Below are positions 1 to 8,647 of a stretch of DNA of 64,000 nt, piece by piece (position 1 is the stretch's first letter; every line of letters starts with the position of its first letter). The stretch is from NCBI RefSeq assembly GCF_003788635.1, contig NZ_AYKH01000008.1, positions 1 to 64,000 of the forward strand, read 5' to 3'. This DNA is from Salinisphaera orenii subsp. orenii MK-B5. Its GTDB lineage: Bacteria; Pseudomonadota; Gammaproteobacteria; Nevskiales; Salinisphaeraceae. A program made the position numbers and the translations under genes. The notes below the pieces were generated by a model. It saw only the letters and a list, made by a program, of their open reading frames with translations, was not told the origin of the DNA and did no database searches.

Positions 1-498
1 GCCGCTGTCCTCCTCCGCCGGAACGGCGACGAAGACCACCCGCCCCGGAAAATCCCGCGGGCCGCTGGCGAACGCCTCGAACGCCTCCAGCGCCGCGACC
101 AGACCCGATTTCATGTCCGAGGCGCCGCGCCCGTAGAGGCGGTCGTCCTCGATCACGCCGGCGAAGGGATCGCGCGTCCACTGGCTGTAGTCGCCCGGTG
201 GGACCACGTCCACATGCCCGGTGAGCAGGACAGTGGGCCCGGGCCGGGTCCCACGGATGGTGCCGGCGACCACCGGCACCCAGGCGCGCTCGATCTCGTG
301 CCCGGGGTAATCCGGGTCGACGACCAGCTTGCCGATGCCGTCATACCAGTAGTCGACCTCGGCGTTGCAGGCGCTCAGCCAGTCGGCGATGCGGCGTATG
401 GCGGCCTCTTCGTCGCCGGTCACCGACGGAATGCGCACCAGGTCCACCAGCCGCTCCCGCAGCCGCTGGCCGTCGATGAGTGTCGTGCGATCGTCCAT
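1..498 (-). CDS. M20-family metallopeptidase (ArgE/DapE type), N-terminal part only
   Basis: The frame is open from an ATG at 498 to the window edge, so only the first 166 residues are visible. They carry the M20 zinc-peptidase signatures: an H-x-D metal motif (LLTGHVDVVP, about residues 92-101), the GRGASDMKSG segment carrying the bridging Asp, and the PAEED catalytic/metal Glu pair at the edge. Family members remove an acyl group or an amino acid from small peptides or N-acylated amino acids. The start overlaps the stop of the hydrolase gene at 498-2540 (TGATG), so it is co-translated as the last visible gene of the cyanophycin operon. Inference: it may process an Asp/Arg-derived dipeptide or an acyl-arginine product. 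The exact substrate cannot be read from the sequence. Confidence 0.85.
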   Translation of the reverse strand, partial: MDDRTTLIDGQRLRERLVDLVRIPSVTGDEEAAIRRIADWLSACNAEVDYWYDGIGKLVVDPDYPGHEIERAWVPVVAGTIRGTRPGPTVLLTGHVDVVPPGDYSQWTRDPFAGVIEDDRLYGRGASDMKSGLVAALEAFEAFASGPRDFPGRVVFVAVPAEEDSG

Positions 499-2540
499 CA
501 GACGTGATGCCGGGGCACGCTGATGTTCCATTCGTCGTGGTAGACGGGCTCGCCGTCCTCCTCGGCCATCAGCGTTGCACGGATATAGAAATAGTCGGCG
601 TCGACCCGCATATGTGTCTCGGTATGGGTGCGCACGCGCCAGCCCTCGCGGTGGAAACCCAGCGTCCAGCGGGCCTCGCCCTCGGCGGAGAGCACGTCGT
701 CGCCGACCGCGGTGTAGCGCTCGGTGCCGCGCTGCTCGATCTGCGTGTCGGTGTTCTCCAGACGGTAGACGCCCTCGGCGTCGGTCACGTCGAGGCTGAA
801 ACGCCCGCTGCCCAGGTCGTGCACGATCTGCCAGTCGTTGGCGCCGGGTTCGATCACGGTGTTCGGCGTCGGCATCGATCCCGTCGGCCGGGCCAGCTCG
901 GGCAGGCGGCGATCGGCGTCGTTCGGTGGCCGCACCGGCAGGCGCAGCAGACTCGCCGACGGCCAGACGGTGAGTGTCACCGGCTCCGGCGACGGCCAGA
1001 CCAGCGGCCAGTAGGAGGACGACAGCGACAGCCGCAGCCGATGGCCGGCCGGAAAATGCTGGCCGATATCGTTGAGCGCGAGCCGGATGCGATAGCGCTC
1101 GCCCGGCACCATCGGTTCGGGATTCTCGTGGCTGTCGCGATGGGTGAGGTTGAGCACGCCGTAGGTCACGCGCGTGACGCTGCCGTCGGGCCGTACGTCG
1201 TTGAGGCGCGCGGCGATCATGGCCAGCGGCCGGTCCACCGCGAGCTCGAGCTCGACCACCACCGCCCCCAGAATCTCCAGTGATTCGGCGAGCGGCGCCG
1301 TATCGAAGACCAGCGAGCCGGCATCGTCGTCGCGCTGGTCCCCGGCCAGATCCGGACCGTTGGCGTAGGAACACCACTTGCCGGCCATCAGGCCGGTCTT
1401 GAGCGGCGAACAGATACTGCGCGGCGCCGATGCGTCGGTCGGGGCGTCGGTCGCGTCAGGGTCCACGGCATCAACCAGCGTCCCGTCGCCCAAAGCGAAT
1501 CGGCGCTCGATGATATGCGCCGACGGCCAGCCGGCCTCGCCGACCCAGCGGCCCGGGCGCACCTCGTAGCTGCGCGCGGGGGCGATGCTGTCGAGCATCC
1601 ACGCGCGCAGCGCCGGCTCGTCCATTACGCCGGTGTCCTCGCCCTTGAGCCAGTGATCCCACCAGCGCAGCGACTCCTGCAGAAAACCGATGGCGGGTCC
1701 GGCCTTGCCGAGGTGCGGGTAGCGATGGCTCCACGGGCCGACCAGGCCCTTGCAGGGCGCCTCGAGCCGCGCCAGCAGCCGGAACACGGCGTTCGAATAG
1801 CCGTCCGCCCAGCCGCTGACCGCGAATACGGGGCATTGGACACGCGAGAAGTCCTCGCACACCGAGCCGTGTTTCCAGTAGGGGTCGCGGTGCTGGTGCC
1901 GGGTCCACTGATCCAGCCAGAGCCCGCTGCCCTTGAGCCGGTCGAGCCACATGGCCCGCCAATTGTCGCCGACCACGGCCGGGTCCGGTGGGCTGGCGTT
2001 GCCGGCGAACATCACCGACGCCCAGGACAGATTGTCGAGCAGCATGCAGCCGCCCATGTAGTGGACGTCGTCGGCGTAGCGGTCGTCGGTCGAGCAGACC
2101 GTGATCACGGCCTTGAGCGCCTCCGGCTGCAGGGCGGCGATCTGCAGGCCGTTGAAGCCGCCCCAGGAGATGCCGATCATGCCGACATTGCCGTCACACC
2201 ATGGCTGGGCGGCCAGCCAGTCGATGATGCGCACGCCGTCCTCGAGCTCCTGACTGGTGTACTCGTCGGTGAGCACGCCCTCGGAGTCGCCGCTGCCGCG
2301 GATGTCGACGCGGATCGAAGCATAGCCGTGGCCGGCGAAATACGGATGATTCAGATCGTCCCGGGCGCGGGTGTGATCGCTCTTGCGGTACGGGATGTAT
2401 TCCAGGATCGCCGGCACCGGCTCGGATTCCGCATCTTCGGGCATCCAGATCCGGGCGGCCAGCCGCACGCCGTCGGCCATCGTGATCCAGACGCCGTCGA
2501 CCTCGCGCACCGGGTTGGGAAAGATCCGCACGCGTCTCAT
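498..2540 (-). CDS. CocE/NonD-type alpha/beta hydrolase (X-Pro dipeptidyl-peptidase S15 family)
   Basis: The product is 680 residues. It has the S15/CocE signatures: a YRK motif near residue 51, RGSGDSEG near 81-88, and the nucleophile elbow GISWGG at 123-128 with Ser125. The C-terminal half fits the beta-rich PepX_C/jelly-roll domain of these enzymes. The family hydrolyses esters or amide/peptide bonds of small substrates. I chose the ATG at 2540 because it overlaps the preceding ATP-grasp stop (ATGA) and starts directly at the conserved part; an in-frame start 57 bases further upstream only adds an Arg/Pro-rich stretch. It has no signal peptide, so it is cytoplasmic. Its place in a cyanophycin operon suggests work on peptide or acyl-peptide products. 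That is inference. Confidence 0.85.
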   Translation of the reverse strand: MRRVRIFPNPVREVDGVWITMADGVRLAARIWMPEDAESEPVPAILEYIPYRKSDHTRARDDLNHPYFAGHGYASIRVDIRGSGDSEGVLTDEYTSQELEDGVRIIDWLAAQPWCDGNVGMIGISWGGFNGLQIAALQPEALKAVITVCSTDDRYADDVHYMGGCMLLDNLSWASVMFAGNASPPDPAVVGDNWRAMWLDRLKGSGLWLDQWTRHQHRDPYWKHGSVCEDFSRVQCPVFAVSGWADGYSNAVFRLLARLEAPCKGLVGPWSHRYPHLGKAGPAIGFLQESLRWWDHWLKGEDTGVMDEPALRAWMLDSIAPARSYEVRPGRWVGEAGWPSAHIIERRFALGDGTLVDAVDPDATDAPTDASAPRSICSPLKTGLMAGKWCSYANGPDLAGDQRDDDAGSLVFDTAPLAESLEILGAVVVELELAVDRPLAMIAARLNDVRPDGSVTRVTYGVLNLTHRDSHENPEPMVPGERYRIRLALNDIGQHFPAGHRLRLSLSSSYWPLVWPSPEPVTLTVWPSASLLRLPVRPPNDADRRLPELARPTGSMPTPNTVIEPGANDWQIVHDLGSGRFSLDVTDAEGVYRLENTDTQIEQRGTERYTAVGDDVLSAEGEARWTLGFHREGWRVRTHTETHMRVDADYFYIRATLMAEEDGEPVYHDEWNISVPRHHV

Positions 2541-3841
2541 GGCTGGGTGTCCTCGTTGGCGACGGGGCGGATGTCGAAGTTCAGCGTCCGCCGGCACAGG
2601 CGATAGTGTTCACGCAGCATCTGCGGATCGTCGCCGCCGAGATAGAGCAGCGCCAGCGCATAGCTGTAGGTTTCCTGATGGGTGAGCGCCGACAGGCGGG
2701 TGCCGGCTTCCACATGCGGTTCGAAGATCATACCCGGAACCGAGGCCGCCAGCGCCTGGATCTCGGCGGCCTCCGGCACCCGCCCGACCACGCCGTCGCG
2801 ATAGTGGCGCAGAAAACAGCAGGCGGCATGGGCGAACTCGCCCTGGCCGTGCACGAACCGCGGCGCTCGCCCGAGGGCCACGTCCACCACCACCTCGTGA
2901 TTGGATACCCCGTCGACCTTCTCGAACAGGTCGCTGTGGTGCTGGGCGATCCGTGTGTTGATCTCCAGCAGCCAGACCCGGTCGGCCGACGCGTCCCAGA
3001 AGAACTCGATGTTGAACGCCGACTGATCGAACTCGATATGCGCCAGCACGGTGCGCGCGATCGCCTCCATGCGCCGGATCACGGCCAGTGGCAGACGCGA
3101 CGGATACTGGTAACGCAGAAACGTCGGCCGGTCGCGCGCGCGGATGGAGTCGATGACGCCGTGGAAATGCACCGCGCCGTCGAACACATAGCCTTCGAGC
3201 GTGCACTGGCGGCCGCCGATCAGCGATTCGGCGATACAGTAATGCCCGCCGACGTCGGCCACCGCCGGCGGCAGGGTGGCATGGGCCAGGATGTGGTCGA
3301 ACGGCTCGGCGAAGATGCCGATGTGCTCGCGAATCGTGGCGAGCGCGTGATCGAAGGCCGCGCGGTCGTCCACCCGGAATCCCAGGAACGAGCCGGCCGA
3401 TTTCACCGGCTTGATCCAGAACGGATAATCCAGCGTCAGCGCGCCGGCGGGATCGTCGCCGAACGGGTCCACCAGCTCGAAGGCCGGAACATGCTCGGCC
3501 ACCACCTCGCGCTGTACCAGACGGCTCCAGTACTTGTGCTCGCAGCGCAGCAGGCTTTCCAGCGTTGGCGCGCGCAGGCCGAAGCGACGGGCGATGATCG
3601 GAATCATCGTGCTGACCGGGAAATCCACATAGCCGATCACGGCATGCGGCGGCCCGTCATGCGCCTCGATCTGCGCCACGGCGCGCTCGAGCATGTCGGC
3701 GATCGGAAAATAATCCGCCTCCATGATCTCGGCGGGATCCAGCAGGCCGATGAAGCGGCACTCCGACGCGGCGCTCGTGTTTTCGAGCTTGCGCCGATTG
3801 AACATGTCCAGACCCAATACGAACACATTGTGCTGTGTCAT
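2537..3841 (-). CDS. ATP-grasp domain ligase, substrate unknown, in cyanophycin operon
   Basis: The product is 434 residues. The middle and C-terminal parts fit an ATP-grasp fold: WIKPVKSAGS near residue 141 (ATP-binding Lys) and LLEINTR near 292-298 (Mg-binding Glu/Asn pair). The N-terminal 90 residues look like a Rossmann-type pre-ATP-grasp domain. Such enzymes join a carboxylate, through an acyl-phosphate, to an amine; related ones make dipeptides or carnosine-like products. The ATG at 3841 has a GGAG ribosome site 7 bases upstream. It lies 96 bases after iadA and overlaps the next gene by ATGA. It is too short and lacks the Mur-ligase half to be a second cyanophycin synthetase. The substrate is unknown. 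The position, after beta-Asp-Arg hydrolase and before two hydrolases, is what makes it interesting. Confidence 0.8.
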   Translation of the reverse strand: MTQHNVFVLGLDMFNRRKLENTSAASECRFIGLLDPAEIMEADYFPIADMLERAVAQIEAHDGPPHAVIGYVDFPVSTMIPIIARRFGLRAPTLESLLRCEHKYWSRLVQREVVAEHVPAFELVDPFGDDPAGALTLDYPFWIKPVKSAGSFLGFRVDDRAAFDHALATIREHIGIFAEPFDHILAHATLPPAVADVGGHYCIAESLIGGRQCTLEGYVFDGAVHFHGVIDSIRARDRPTFLRYQYPSRLPLAVIRRMEAIARTVLAHIEFDQSAFNIEFFWDASADRVWLLEINTRIAQHHSDLFEKVDGVSNHEVVVDVALGRAPRFVHGQGEFAHAACCFLRHYRDGVVGRVPEAAEIQALAASVPGMIFEPHVEAGTRLSALTHQETYSYALALLYLGGDDPQMLREHYRLCRRTLNFDIRPVANEDTQP

Positions 3842-3937
3842 CCGGCGGCTCCATGGGCCGCGGTGCGCGGCACAAGATTCGAGAAACGAGTGGTTGCGGC
3901 CTGCCCGCGCCGCTCGCGTGTTGTCATCCCCTGCAGC

Positions 3938-5122
3938 TCATGCCGGCCGCGCCGCACGCCGCTCCGGGTCGATACGACGCCCGGCCACGAACGTATGCCG
4001 CGGCTGCAGCTCGTCGTCGAGCAGGGCGATATCGGCGTCGAAACCCGCGGCGAGGCGCCCCTTTCGCGCCTCGAGGCCGAGCACGCGCGCGACGTGGCCC
4101 GATATCAGCCCCAGCGCCTGTTCCATCGGCAGCACCGACTCGCGCACCAGCCGCTGCCAGTCCGACAGCAGCGCGGTGTTGCCGGCGATGCGCATGCCTG
4201 CGTAGTGCCCTTCGCCGTCGAAGACGGGCAGGCTGCCGTTGCAGTCCGAACTCATGGTGATCCGGTCCGCCGGCACGCCCCGCGCGAGCAGGCGCGACAC
4301 GGCGTTGAAGGCGGAGAATTCGTGCTCGCCCGGACAATCGTCGAATGCGGTCACGTCCACGGTCGCGCCGAATTCCAGCGAGAACGCGGCCGCCTCCTCG
4401 AGCAGCGCGTGGCGCCGATTGACGTGGGTCGGGATCACCTGATCCGCAGGAATCTCCGTGTCCCGCAGCAGCCGCCGCAGCGGTTCGAGTCCGCGCGCGC
4501 CGTCGCCGAGATGGAAATGACAGATGCCGCGCTTGCCCGCGAGCATCGCCCCGACCCGTACTTCCGAGACCAGCCGCGCGATTTCGTGGGCCTGCGGCTG
4601 GCTGGAGCGATGGTCCGAGATCGCGATCTCGCCGAGACCGATCACCTCGGGTATCCAGGCCAGATCCCGCTGGAGATCGCCGGTCAGCGTCGGCGGCGGC
4701 ACCCGGTAGGCGCCGGTGTACATATAGGCCGCGATGCCCTCGGCGCGCAGGCCGCGCACCTTGGCGAGCACGTCCGCGGGCGAGCGGCTGACACTGTCCG
4801 TACCCAGCACGCCGACCACCGTGCCGATGCCCATGGCGGCGATATCGGCGGCCTCGATCTCCGAACAGCGCGTGCCGCAGCCGCCCTCGCCGCCGCCGCC
4901 GGTGACGTGCACGTGCTGATCGATGAAGGCCGGCACCGCGGTCAGGTCGCCGTATTCCAGCACTTTCATGGGCCAGCCGGCCGGGATCGCGAGATCACGC
5001 CCCAGCGCCGCGATCCGGCCGTCCGCGATCAGGATATCGGTCGCCGCCAGCGGCTCGGGCGCGTGGATCCGCCCCACCCGCAGCAGCGTGATCAACGCCT
5101 CATCGCCCGGCCCTCCCGTCAT
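3938..5122 (-). CDS. iadA: isoaspartyl dipeptidase
   Basis: The product is 394 residues, close to the roughly 390 of the E. coli enzyme. It is an amidohydrolase-superfamily protein: HxH metal pair at His70 and His72, AISDHRS near 167-173, HFHLGDG, THVNR, and SSDCNGS with the catalytic Asp. IadA cleaves beta-aspartyl dipeptides. Isoaspartyl dipeptidases of this kind are known to split beta-Asp-Arg, the product of cyanophycinase, into aspartate and arginine. The start at 5122 was chosen because the conserved domain begins there; the open frame upstream only runs antisense-like inside cphA. It lies 40 bases after the cphA stop. Oddity: as I recall the E. coli sequence, its carboxylated bridging Lys162 aligns with Glu165 here. 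This would give a Glu-bridged metal centre. Confidence 0.92.
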   Translation of the reverse strand: MTGGPGDEALITLLRVGRIHAPEPLAATDILIADGRIAALGRDLAIPAGWPMKVLEYGDLTAVPAFIDQHVHVTGGGGEGGCGTRCSEIEAADIAAMGIGTVVGVLGTDSVSRSPADVLAKVRGLRAEGIAAYMYTGAYRVPPPTLTGDLQRDLAWIPEVIGLGEIAISDHRSSQPQAHEIARLVSEVRVGAMLAGKRGICHFHLGDGARGLEPLRRLLRDTEIPADQVIPTHVNRRHALLEEAAAFSLEFGATVDVTAFDDCPGEHEFSAFNAVSRLLARGVPADRITMSSDCNGSLPVFDGEGHYAGMRIAGNTALLSDWQRLVRESVLPMEQALGLISGHVARVLGLEARKGRLAAGFDADIALLDDELQPRHTFVAGRRIDPERRAARPA

Positions 5123-5162
5123 AGAAGGGGCCCGCCGGGTGGAAAGATCGGCTGCGTCATCA

Positions 5163-7796
5163 TCACGCACCGGGCGCCGGCGCGGCGCGGGCACCGCGCG
5201 CCCTGAGCTGTGCGATGGCCGCGTCGACGTCATCCACCAGCAGCACGAGCAGATCCTCCGCGTCCGCGGCCTCGAGGGCGCGACCGACCGCCTCGTGTTC
5301 GTCCAGAACCACCTCGATCCGGCAGGCGCCGCCCGCGGCCTCGGCGCCACGGCGCATCAGCTCGGCGGCCTCGCCGAACGGCCGGCCGCGCGGCTGTGTC
5401 TCGCAGATGTAGACCACGCCGTACATGCGCGCGAGCTGACCGCCGAGCGCTTCGATGTCCTCGTTCCGGCGATTGCCGGGCGCGCTGGCGACACACAGAT
5501 TGCGCGCGGCACCGAAACTGCCCAGCAGCTCGTCCAGCGCTTCGAGCGCGGGCACGTTGTGGCCGTAGTCGATGAGCACCCGCAGGCCATCGACTTCGAT
5601 GAGATTGGTGCGGCCGGGATTCTGCCCAAGGGTCGGATGAAAGGTCTGCAGGCCCATCTGCAGGTCGCCCGCGGTCAGGCCGAGCGCATGGCCGGCGGCG
5701 GCCGCCGCCAGGGCGTTGGCAATGTTGAAGCGCGCCCGGCCGCCGAAACTGATGGGAATATCCGCCACCGCGATGATGCGCGCCTCGACCTGGCCCTGGC
5801 GGAGCACCATGAAGCCCTCGTGCACCGTGAAGGCGGCGCCGTGTTCGCTGACATGTTCGCGCACCGGCACCGAATCCGGATCGAGGGTGAAGAACACGAT
5901 CGCGCCGCGCGCCCACTCCCGGGCGGCGAGCACCCGCGGGTCGTCGGCGTTGAGCACCGCCGTGCCGCCGGCGCGCACGGCGTCGATCACCACGCTCTTG
6001 CAGCGGGCCAGTTCGTCGAGCGTGTGGATGTCGTGGTCGCCCAGGTGATCGCTGGCGATATTGAGCAGCACACCCACCTCGCATTCGTCGAAGCCCAGCC
6101 CGCGGCGCATGATGCCGCCGCGTGCCACCTCCAGCACCGCCTGCTCGACCGTGGGCTCGCGCAGCACGATGGCGGCCGCCTGGGGACCGCTGTAGTCGCC
6201 CTGCATGATCACGTGGTTGTCGATCTCGATCGCCCCGGTACAGGCGAGGCCGACCCGGCGCCCGGCCTGGCGCAGCAGATGCGCGATCAGGCGTACCGTC
6301 GTGGTCTTGCCGTTGGTGCCCGTCACGGCGGTGATGGGGACGCGCCCGTCGGCTCCGGCCGCGCCCTCGGCCGGGCCGAACAGCATGTCGACCACGTGCC
6401 GGCCGACATCGCGGCCCCGGCCGTGCGTGGGCGACAGGTGCATGCGAAAGCCCGGCCCTGCATTGACCTCGACCACCGCCGCGGACTGTTCGGCCAGCGG
6501 CAGGGTCAGCGTCTCGGCGAGCAGATCGATACCGATGATGTCGAGCCCGATCAGGCGCGCGATGCGTTCGGCGGCGTAGCGGACCTCCGGATGCACGTCG
6601 TCGGTGACGTCGGCCGCGGTGCCGCCGGTGCTCAGATTGGCGGTGGACTTCAGCCAGACGATCGCGTCCGCGGCGATCACGCTGTCGAGGCTGTGGCCCT
6701 GCTGGGCGATCAGCCGATGCGACTGCTCGTCGATATCGATGCGTGTCAGCAGGTTCTCGTGCCCGACGCCGCGCCGTGGATCGCGGTTCGCGGCATCGAC
6801 GAGCGCCTGCAATGTCGACTCGCCGTCGCCGATCACATGTGCCGGGCGTCGTCGCGCCGCCGCCACCAGCTGGCCGTCGATCACGAGCAGGCGATGATCC
6901 TCGCCTCTGATGTGGTTCTCGACCACCACCGTGTCGTGGCGCAGCCGGGCCGCCTCGTAGGCCGCGTGCAGCGCCTCGTCGTCGCCCACGTCGGTACTCA
7001 CGCCGCGGCCATGGTTGCCGACCATCGGCTTGACCGCGACCGGATAGCCGAGCGCGCGGGCGGCCTCGAGCGCCTGTTCGACACTGTCGCAGGTACGACC
7101 GTCGGGCACCGGGATCCCGGCGTCGCCCAGAATCTGCTTGGTCCAGTTCTTGTCGTCGGCGATGCCGTGGCCGATCAGGCTGGTATTGCCGGTCACCGTG
7201 GCCTGGATGCGCTGCTGGCGGTGCCCATGGCCCAGCTGCAGGTAGCTGTTCTCGTCGCTGGCGCGCGTACAGGGAATACCGCGACGCCGGGCCTCGTCGA
7301 CGATGGCCGCGGTCGACGGCCCGAGCATGTGCGCGTCGCGCACCGCCTTCAGGCGTGACAGGACCGGCTCCAGGTCGATGTCCCGGCCGTCGAAAAGCCG
7401 CTCGGTCAGATCGACCGCCTCGACCCCGACCGCCAGTCCGCAGGCCTCGTCCCGATAGCGGTAGACGACGTTGTAGATGCCGGTCTCATAGGAATCGACG
7501 GTCTTGCCGTAGCCCACCGAAAAACCGATCAGATTCTGCAGCTCGATGGCCACGTGTTCGACCACGTGCCCCGCCCACGTCCCGCGCTGGAGGCGTTCGA
7601 GGAATCCGCCCGGCCGGCCGACCGAGCATCGATGCTCGGCCAGGCTCGGCATCAGCCGGCTCAGGTGATCGACGATACCGGGCACACAGTCACTCGGCCG
7701 CGCCTCGAGCGCGCCGATGTCCAGACGCATCAGCATGGCGGGGTAGCGGCTGTAGTAATTCGGTCCGCGCAGCGCCCGGTGTTCGAGTATCTTCAC
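5163..7796 (-). CDS. cphA: cyanophycin synthetase
   Basis: The product is 877 residues, the normal length for CphA. It has the expected order: an N-terminal domain (about 1-160), an ATP-grasp domain (about 215-480), and a Mur-ligase-like domain starting with the P-loop GTNGKTTT near residue 492. It makes cyanophycin by alternately adding Asp to the backbone and Arg to the Asp side chain, using ATP for each bond. The start codon is GTG at 7796, sharing GTGA with the cphB stop, so translation is coupled. The region around residues 180-215 (QLGHG...) matches the conserved linker of CphA1-type enzymes. There is only one cphA in view. It acts in the cytoplasm, building insoluble granules that store nitrogen, carbon and energy. 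Confidence 0.96.
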   Translation of the reverse strand: MKILEHRALRGPNYYSRYPAMLMRLDIGALEARPSDCVPGIVDHLSRLMPSLAEHRCSVGRPGGFLERLQRGTWAGHVVEHVAIELQNLIGFSVGYGKTVDSYETGIYNVVYRYRDEACGLAVGVEAVDLTERLFDGRDIDLEPVLSRLKAVRDAHMLGPSTAAIVDEARRRGIPCTRASDENSYLQLGHGHRQQRIQATVTGNTSLIGHGIADDKNWTKQILGDAGIPVPDGRTCDSVEQALEAARALGYPVAVKPMVGNHGRGVSTDVGDDEALHAAYEAARLRHDTVVVENHIRGEDHRLLVIDGQLVAAARRRPAHVIGDGESTLQALVDAANRDPRRGVGHENLLTRIDIDEQSHRLIAQQGHSLDSVIAADAIVWLKSTANLSTGGTAADVTDDVHPEVRYAAERIARLIGLDIIGIDLLAETLTLPLAEQSAAVVEVNAGPGFRMHLSPTHGRGRDVGRHVVDMLFGPAEGAAGADGRVPITAVTGTNGKTTTVRLIAHLLRQAGRRVGLACTGAIEIDNHVIMQGDYSGPQAAAIVLREPTVEQAVLEVARGGIMRRGLGFDECEVGVLLNIASDHLGDHDIHTLDELARCKSVVIDAVRAGGTAVLNADDPRVLAAREWARGAIVFFTLDPDSVPVREHVSEHGAAFTVHEGFMVLRQGQVEARIIAVADIPISFGGRARFNIANALAAAAAGHALGLTAGDLQMGLQTFHPTLGQNPGRTNLIEVDGLRVLIDYGHNVPALEALDELLGSFGAARNLCVASAPGNRRNEDIEALGGQLARMYGVVYICETQPRGRPFGEAAELMRRGAEAAGGACRIEVVLDEHEAVGRALEAADAEDLLVLLVDDVDAAIAQLRARGARAAPAPGA

Positions 7797-8647
7797 GACG
7801 ACGCGCCGGGCTGCATGCGCGCCTCGACCTCCCGGGGTGACAGATAGCGGCGGGCGGCGACATCGAAGCCATGGCCGCTGATCAACGCATGCATGACCAT
7901 GTTCTCCACCGCCACCGGCTCGCCGATCGCCAGCTCGGCGACGTTCGAGCGGGCCAGATCGCGGCTGTCGACGAGAATGACGTGCCCCGGCCCCGCCGCT
8001 TCGAGGATGCCATTCGGATGCACGATGACCGCCGCGTCCTCACCGAGCCCGACGCCCAGATCCTCGGGATTGGTCGCGCCGACCTCCATCAGGCGGGTGA
8101 ACCGGCCGCGCTCGAGAAAATGGGTGTCGACGATCAGTCCGTCGACGAAACCGAGCCCCGAACTCATGTTGACGCCGCCCTTGCGCAGCGCGTCCGATGC
8201 GTTGCCGTTGTAGATCATGGTGGTGCACAGGGCCATGGCGCCGGCACTGGTGCCGGCGATCACCGCGCCGCTCCGCAGCCGCTGCCGGATCGCGATCAGC
8301 AGGGGTGAACCGCCGAGCATATGGGTCAGCCGAAGCTGGTCGCCGCCGGTGAAGAACACGATGTCGCTGCGCTCGATCGCGCGCAAGGTCTCCGCACAGG
8401 CGGCCTCCTCGCGCGTGCTCACCGGCAGCGAGTGCACGCAGCGCGCCCCCAGTTGACTGAACACGGACTCGTAGGCCGCGAGGACCTGCTCCGGAATCCC
8501 GCTGGCGGTGGCGATCACGGCGACTTCCGGATGCGGTGCCGACGCCAGCGACACCACTCGCGACAAGACCACCCGCTCGGAGGTCTTGTCTTCGGCGCCG
8601 CCTATGGCGACCAGGGTGCCGCGGGTGCGGGAAGCGACAGATGGCAT
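7793..8647 (-). CDS. cphB: cyanophycinase
   Basis: The product is 284 residues, typical for cytoplasmic cyanophycinase. It is a peptidase S51 protein with FTGGDQ at 99-104 and the nucleophile motif GTSAGA at 132-137 (Ser134). The enzyme cuts cyanophycin into beta-Asp-Arg dipeptides. There is no signal peptide, so it acts on internal granules, not on external polymer as the secreted cyanophycinases do. It is the first gene of the leftward operon; the 343 bases upstream hold no gene. The stop overlaps the GTG of cphA. Placing breakdown before synthesis in one transcript implies that control of the pool depends partly on activity or metabolites, not only on transcription. That last point is inference. 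Confidence 0.95.
   Translation of the reverse strand: MPSVASRTRGTLVAIGGAEDKTSERVVLSRVVSLASAPHPEVAVIATASGIPEQVLAAYESVFSQLGARCVHSLPVSTREEAACAETLRAIERSDIVFFTGGDQLRLTHMLGGSPLLIAIRQRLRSGAVIAGTSAGAMALCTTMIYNGNASDALRKGGVNMSSGLGFVDGLIVDTHFLERGRFTRLMEVGATNPEDLGVGLGEDAAVIVHPNGILEAAGPGHVILVDSRDLARSNVAELAIGEPVAVENMVMHALISGHGFDVAARRYLSPREVEARMQPGASS

Follow-up and report, generated by a model that had tools for sequence, protein, structure and literature searches.

A halophile-biased ATP-grasp ligase and hydrolase module joined to a cyanophycin operon in Salinisphaera orenii

A small set of known solutes accounts for how halophiles adapt to osmotic stress, and the ectoine synthase EctC serves as a marker of this adaptation. 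In a 2005 review of halophile solutes, the enzymes for uncharged amino-acid and dipeptide osmolytes were described as then unexplored (PMC1224877). Separately, cyanophycin gene clusters have been surveyed as combinations of a synthetase (CphA1), a cyanophycinase (CphB), and an isoaspartyl dipeptidase (IadA or IaaA), all three being clustered in about one-sixth of the genomes that have all three (Sharon and Schmeing 2023, PMC10206079). Here, we analyzed a stretch of 64,000 nucleotides (the window) at the start of contig C8 (NZ_AYKH01000008.1) of the 3.67 Mb genome of Salinisphaera orenii subsp. orenii MK-B5, in which cphB, cphA, and iadA are followed on one strand by genes for an ATP-grasp ligase (ligase 1), a CocE/NonD (peptidase S15) serine hydrolase, and an M20 metallopeptidase (Table 1). 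Locally, this operon unites an ordinary set of cyanophycin genes with a ligase-hydrolase module that is biased toward halophiles and was not found described in searches of open-licence full-text papers.

All six genes lie on the minus strand, and four of their five junctions are tight, with overlaps of 4 bases (cphB/cphA and ATP-grasp/CocE) and 1 base (CocE/M20) and a gap of 40 bases (cphA/iadA); the sole loose junction is the 96-base gap between iadA and the ATP-grasp gene. These coordinates agree with an earlier note on this DNA, which had read the six genes as one operon from four junctions that either overlap by 1-4 bases or leave gaps of 40 or less. Its sixth gene, the M20 peptidase, is present but incomplete, because the window starts at base 1 of contig C8. 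The 3′ part of this gene forms the end of contig C12, and a gap of 2 bases separates the corresponding pieces in Salinisphaera halophila; across the contig joint, the region matches S. halophila YIM 95161 at 100% over 520 bases and 98.9% over 895 bases. A sigma-70 promoter scan 5′ of cphB found none. Judged by their curated family models, the first three genes are ordinary cyanophycin genes. The other three belong to a separate module.

Table 1. Genes of the operon in the window and the convergent ligase gene beyond its edge.
Feature	Position	Strand	Evidence
cphB, cyanophycinase, 284 aa	7793..8647	-	TIGR02069 equivalog 228.6 bits (cut-off 126.6); Peptidase_S51; GTSAGA nucleophile motif
cphA, cyanophycin synthetase, 877 aa, GTG start	5163..7796	-	TIGR02068 equivalog 1108 bits (cut-off 850)
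iadA, isoaspartyl dipeptidase	3938..5122	-	TIGR01975 equivalog 387 bits (cut-off 331); ATG at 5122 taken as start
ATP-grasp ligase 1, 434 aa, L-amino-acid-ligase fold (predicted)	2537..3841	-	PF13535 ATP-grasp_4
CocE/NonD (peptidase S15) serine hydrolase, 680 aa	498..2540	-	TIGR00976 278.5 bits (cut-off 66.3); PF02129, PF08530
M20 metallopeptidase / ArgE-DapE-type amidohydrolase, N-terminal 166 residues	1..498	-	PF01546 75.5 bits on fragment
EctC-like cupin fused to ATP-grasp ligase (ligase 2)	L048:8428-10113; contig C12 ~334,427-336,112	convergent to M20	

A scan of 84,980 species genomes yielded 476 loci encoding relatives of ligase 1, and the best 80 of these 476 were kept for locus counts; locus and genome counts throughout are not phylogenetically independent and are uncorrected for relatedness, and habitats were taken from record titles and general knowledge. 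The nearest 80 loci span nine phyla, and nearly all come either from named halophiles, including Halomonas, Halovibrio, Halospina, Kushneria, Salinicola, Thioalkalivibrio, Rhodovibrio, and Fodinicurvata, or from metagenome-assembled genomes (MAGs) with names that we take to belong to soda-lake sediment series. In 63 of these loci, CocE comes immediately after the ligase on the same strand, with a median gap of 42 bases, and seven loci carry tandem ligases. In an even draw of 370 Gammaproteobacteria, of which 21 have the ligase, EctC was found in 11 of the 21 versus 43 of the other 349 genomes (Fisher p 3e-5). The module varies in its composition and arrangement: Salinisphaera japonica YTM-1 and MAG UBA4764 hold ATP-grasp, CocE, M20, and an EctC-fused second ligase with no cph genes adjacent; Halovibrio, Halospina, and Vreelandella utahensis carry a consecutive run of ligase 1, CocE, M20, another CocE, and the EctC-fused ligase; and two further Salinisphaera genomes (G075 and G079) carry a diverged module (ATP-grasp 41%, CocE 54%) with an amidase in place of M20 (L046:5911-10793 and L047:8976-12844). 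In the Halovibrio, Vreelandella, and Halospina loci (L112-L114, L116, and L117), the two CocE paralogues flank M20, one per ligase, and an extra partial CocE match lies at the locus edge. The complete chromosome of Halomonas beimenensis has two ligase copies (L160 and L171), only one of which is followed by CocE, and no CphA.

Ligase 1 matches generic Pfam ATP-grasp models only, and no NCBIfam family scores above its cut-off. Its AlphaFold model is confident (mean pLDDT 93.6), and in structure comparisons of this model the L-amino acid ligase 3vot ranks first among solved chains (Z 32.3 over 387 residues), followed by BacD/YwfE at Z ~29 (3vmm, Z 29.6) and then PurK (Z 28-29); the first five Foldseek rows are BacD, YwfE, RizA, and 3vot. 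E279, E293, N295, and R297 are invariant in an alignment of 46 relatives, and from general ATP-grasp knowledge we take these to comprise ATP/Mg-binding acidic residues and a catalytic arginine. The predicted full-length fold is thus of the L-amino-acid (dipeptide) ligase type, which suits the separate ligase proposed in the earlier note. In plasmid collections, ligase relatives are only 31-36% identical and have unrelated neighbors, with closer matches for CocE alone. Given that several of the enzymes with the closest folds (BacD/YwfE, BL00235, and RizA) make bioactive dipeptides, the locus might encode a small natural-product pathway like those of bacilysin-type dipeptide antibiotics, with CocE and M20 acting in self-protection or maturation. 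We consider this distinctly improbable, since no exporter, transporter, regulator, nonribosomal peptide synthetase, or tailoring gene recurs beside the ligase-CocE pair across lineages, and a bare two-gene unit kept over nine phyla with a common habitat fits core physiology better.

Turning to the hydrolases, the GxSxxG serine, GWxDG, and GPWSH segments of the CocE protein align with the Ser-Asp-His triad segments of cocaine esterase (1ju3), and by family and triad it is predicted to be a CocE/NonD (S15) hydrolase. The M20 fragment in the window scores 109 bits on the ArgE/DapE-type subfamily model (cut-off 217.6), and its full-length orthologue (L043:12683-13960) passes TIGR01910 with 253 bits (cut-off 217.6) and is, by this match, an ArgE/DapE-type deacylase. 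The earlier note's suggestion that the hydrolases reverse the ligase is plausible. Another explanation would have CocE and M20 act in scavenging or repair, on peptides that are imported or damaged, while the ATP-grasp enzyme makes something unrelated that is only co-regulated. It draws on CocE relatives (50-55% identity) that adjoin oligopeptide ABC transporters on alphaproteobacterial plasmids, which hint at the substrate class of this CocE group, and on the absence of M20 from most module loci; however, no transporter lies in the operon or recurs beside the pair, and the ligase-CocE adjacency across phyla would be hard to explain if the two were unrelated, so that we hold this explanation to be quite unlikely.

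A seventh gene, first seen via relatives within the genus, lies just beyond the window, outside the DNA that the earlier note could draw on, and encodes a second ATP-grasp ligase with an EctC-like domain (ligase 2). Its product has 561 residues, with an EctC-like part of 125 residues followed by an ATP-grasp part 45% identical to ligase 1. The N-terminal domain matches PF06339 with 127.6 bits (cut-off 27) and barely passes the NCBI ectoine synthase subfamily model (130.5 versus a cut-off of 128), and the AlphaFold model of the fusion has a mean pLDDT of 87.9. Among the 80 nearest loci, 12 encode such a fusion. Records with the fusion belong to Salinisphaera, Nitrococcus, Ectothiorhodospiraceae, Halovibrio, Halospina, Vreelandella, and Alcanivorax, and literature searches found no report of an EctC/ATP-grasp ligase fusion. 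In ectoine synthase, Glu57, Tyr84, and His92 are the iron ligands (residue roles from PMC6344544). All ten fusions aligned have Ile, Val, or Tyr in place of His92, while they retain Glu57 and R25 and mostly retain W21 and Tyr84; the separate EctC proteins of Salinisphaeraceae, found in 17 of 17 genomes at ~175-183 bits, keep all three iron ligands. A working ectoine synthase was therefore rejected for the fused domain, which we regard as EctC-derived without filing it as an ectoine synthase. Two observations concern other EctC proteins. An extra solitary EctC of ~150 bits with all three iron ligands (L186:6828-7229, contig C44) adjoins a thiamine-dependent oxidase-like gene, and a comparable second match (147-156 bits) occurs besides the stronger one in about ten Salinisphaeraceae genomes. 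On a Rhizobium plasmid (L103:1673-7568), the ectoine uptake genes ehuBCDA stand together with an amidase, an orphan EctC, an oxidoreductase, and a RidA protein, which suggests a catabolic setting for that EctC.

The tie between the ligase and the cyanophycin genes is real but facultative. In 13 of the 80 loci, the ligase shares its block with cphA, cphB, or both. The ligase tree places these loci on at least four branches (a Desulfobacterota/Bacteroidota clade, Salinisphaera, Halomonas with Billgrantia, and a Rhodobacteraceae genome), and their gene orders differ: CocE-cphB-ligase-cphA on one strand (L120 and L124), cphA-CocE divergent from cphB-ligase (L125 and L127), iadA-cphA-cphB divergent from ligase-CocE (L168 and L176), and cphB-cphA-ligase-CocE (L179). 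A chance neighborhood was rejected because the linkage recurs in this way, and we estimate chance adjacency within 9 kb at ~0.5% (window over genome size), given CphA in about half of such genomes. CphA was found anywhere in 28 of 48 ligase-bearing genomes tested, or 19 of 39 without the nine chosen for their linkage, and in 20 of the 370 evenly drawn Gammaproteobacteria (~5%). Within that draw, CphA was present in 4 of 21 ligase-bearing versus 16 of 349 other genomes (p 0.02), the signal coming from two families only. At the same time, S. japonica has the complete module and H. beimenensis has the ATP-grasp/CocE pair plus a second ligase, and no CphA was found in either genome; in UBA4764, CphA lies on a different contig from the module. 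A single obligatory cyanophycin pathway was rejected on the strength of the module standing alone in S. japonica and elsewhere. The earlier note's reading of a ligase with hydrolases that may reverse it gains support, the tie to the cyanophycin genes being non-random, whereas its inference of a product built from the cyanophycin pool is not supported as a necessity. The module does occur in genomes without cyanophycin genes, as that note had named as grounds for doubt, but it is not merely a chance neighbor of cphA.

These data bear directly on a dedicated cyanophycin chemistry along the lines of the earlier note, in which the ligase would couple beta-Asp-Arg, or free arginine or aspartate, to an acceptor, CocE and M20 would reverse this step, and genomes lacking CphA would use imported or protein-derived isoaspartyl dipeptides. 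The Desulfobacterota/Bacteroidota clade argues for it, as each of its eight loci with enough flank has cphB on the same strand as the ligase and directly upstream of it (short contigs hold the other two members) and CocE comes before or after in the same block where the contig permits (L120, L122, L124, L125, and L127); so does the frequency of CphA among ligase-bearing genomes. With S. japonica, H. beimenensis, and 17 of the 21 ligase-bearing Gammaproteobacteria on the other side, we regard this chemistry as unlikely, albeit deserving of serious consideration.

We tentatively favor, at somewhat short of an even chance, a reading in which halophiles use the ligase and hydrolases as a make-and-break pair acting on a small peptide-like solute, the pair being wired in this operon to cyanophycin turnover. 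The ligase usually stands beside a hydrolase, mirroring CphA and CphB, which by analogy suggests a make-and-break pair for an accumulated product. That this product is a small, soluble, peptide-like solute is suggested by the bias toward halophiles, by the EctC-derived domain, and by the fact that neither transporters nor tailoring genes recur. The ligase-plus-hydrolases part of this reading is well supported; for the identity of the solute, its substrates, its role as an osmolyte, and the direction of flux between store and solute, we infer the following scheme. The first three genes encode a standard cyanophycin cycle, in which CphA polymerizes aspartate and arginine, CphB frees beta-Asp-Arg, and IadA splits this dipeptide. 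The ATP-grasp enzyme would use ATP to link amino acids to one another, or an amino acid to a dipeptide, giving a small soluble peptide that CocE and M20 would hydrolyze again, and the convergent ligase 2, with its EctC-like sensing or modifying domain, may perform or regulate a second ligation. The product would be an accumulated solute of regulated turnover that aids the cell at high salt, cyanophycin would serve as an osmotically silent, insoluble store of nitrogen and amino acids for building it, and the shared operon would allow amino acids and nitrogen to pass between the two. A broader proposal is a new compatible-solute pathway shared among halophiles from several phyla: the solute would be built by one or two dipeptide ligases, one of them with an EctC-like domain that senses or cyclizes, and degraded by CocE and M20, and cyanophycin would be the insoluble reserve. 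We hold this proposal to be more doubtful, though not far-fetched.

Several points weigh against the favored reading. The roles of ligase and hydrolases are predicted from families and folds, and fold likeness does not fix the chemistry of ligase 1 because PurK, PurT, and biotin carboxylase follow closely as matches (Z 25-29). The halophile bias was drawn from the best 80 of 476 loci with habitats assigned as described above, and CphA is missing from most ligase-bearing Gammaproteobacteria in the even draw. Further, on rhizobial and roseobacter plasmids the CocE relatives lie directly upstream of the oligopeptide ABC transporter genes (L102:1303-8879 and L104:7998-16547), so that peptide scavenging is possible for CocE. 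Were the make-and-break reading true, a ligase-hydrolase pair that tracks salt habitat across phyla would point to an unrecognized solute, cyanophycin would gain a role outside cyanobacteria, and the module would be a source of new salt-adapted peptide ligases.

Compared with known systems, the locus resembles each of several in part. Its cphB, cphA, and iadA pass curated cut-offs and cluster as in the surveyed cyanophycin operons, and it differs from these in its additional genes, as the survey counts synthetase, cyanophycinase, and isoaspartyl dipeptidases only; the parts consulted mention neither an ATP-grasp ligase nor a CocE partner, and a text search of the paper gave no match to "ATP-grasp" (PMC10206079). 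With the L-amino acid ligases BacD/YwfE, BL00235 (3vot), and RizA, ligase 1 shares the same full-length predicted fold (Z 28-32 over 360-400 residues) and the invariant ATP-grasp acidic and arginine residues; it differs in sequence (13-18% identity), partner genes, and halophile distribution. In the N-acetylglutaminylglutamine amide (NAGGN) system, the genes of which have been described since 2005, ATP-grasp ligation of amino acids yields a peptide osmolyte and a peptidase is part of the cluster. The likeness to our module is conceptual; neither ligase matches the NAGGN synthetase model TIGR03103, for which reason this identity was rejected, and the module cluster showed neither an asparagine-synthetase-like gene nor a GNAT gene. 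Finally, ligase 2 resembles ectoine synthase and orphan EctC proteins (PMC6344544, PMC5924519) in its PF06339 match and in the conserved E57 and R25 and mostly conserved W21 and Tyr84, and is set apart from them by its fusion to an ATP-grasp ligase and by the replacement of His92.

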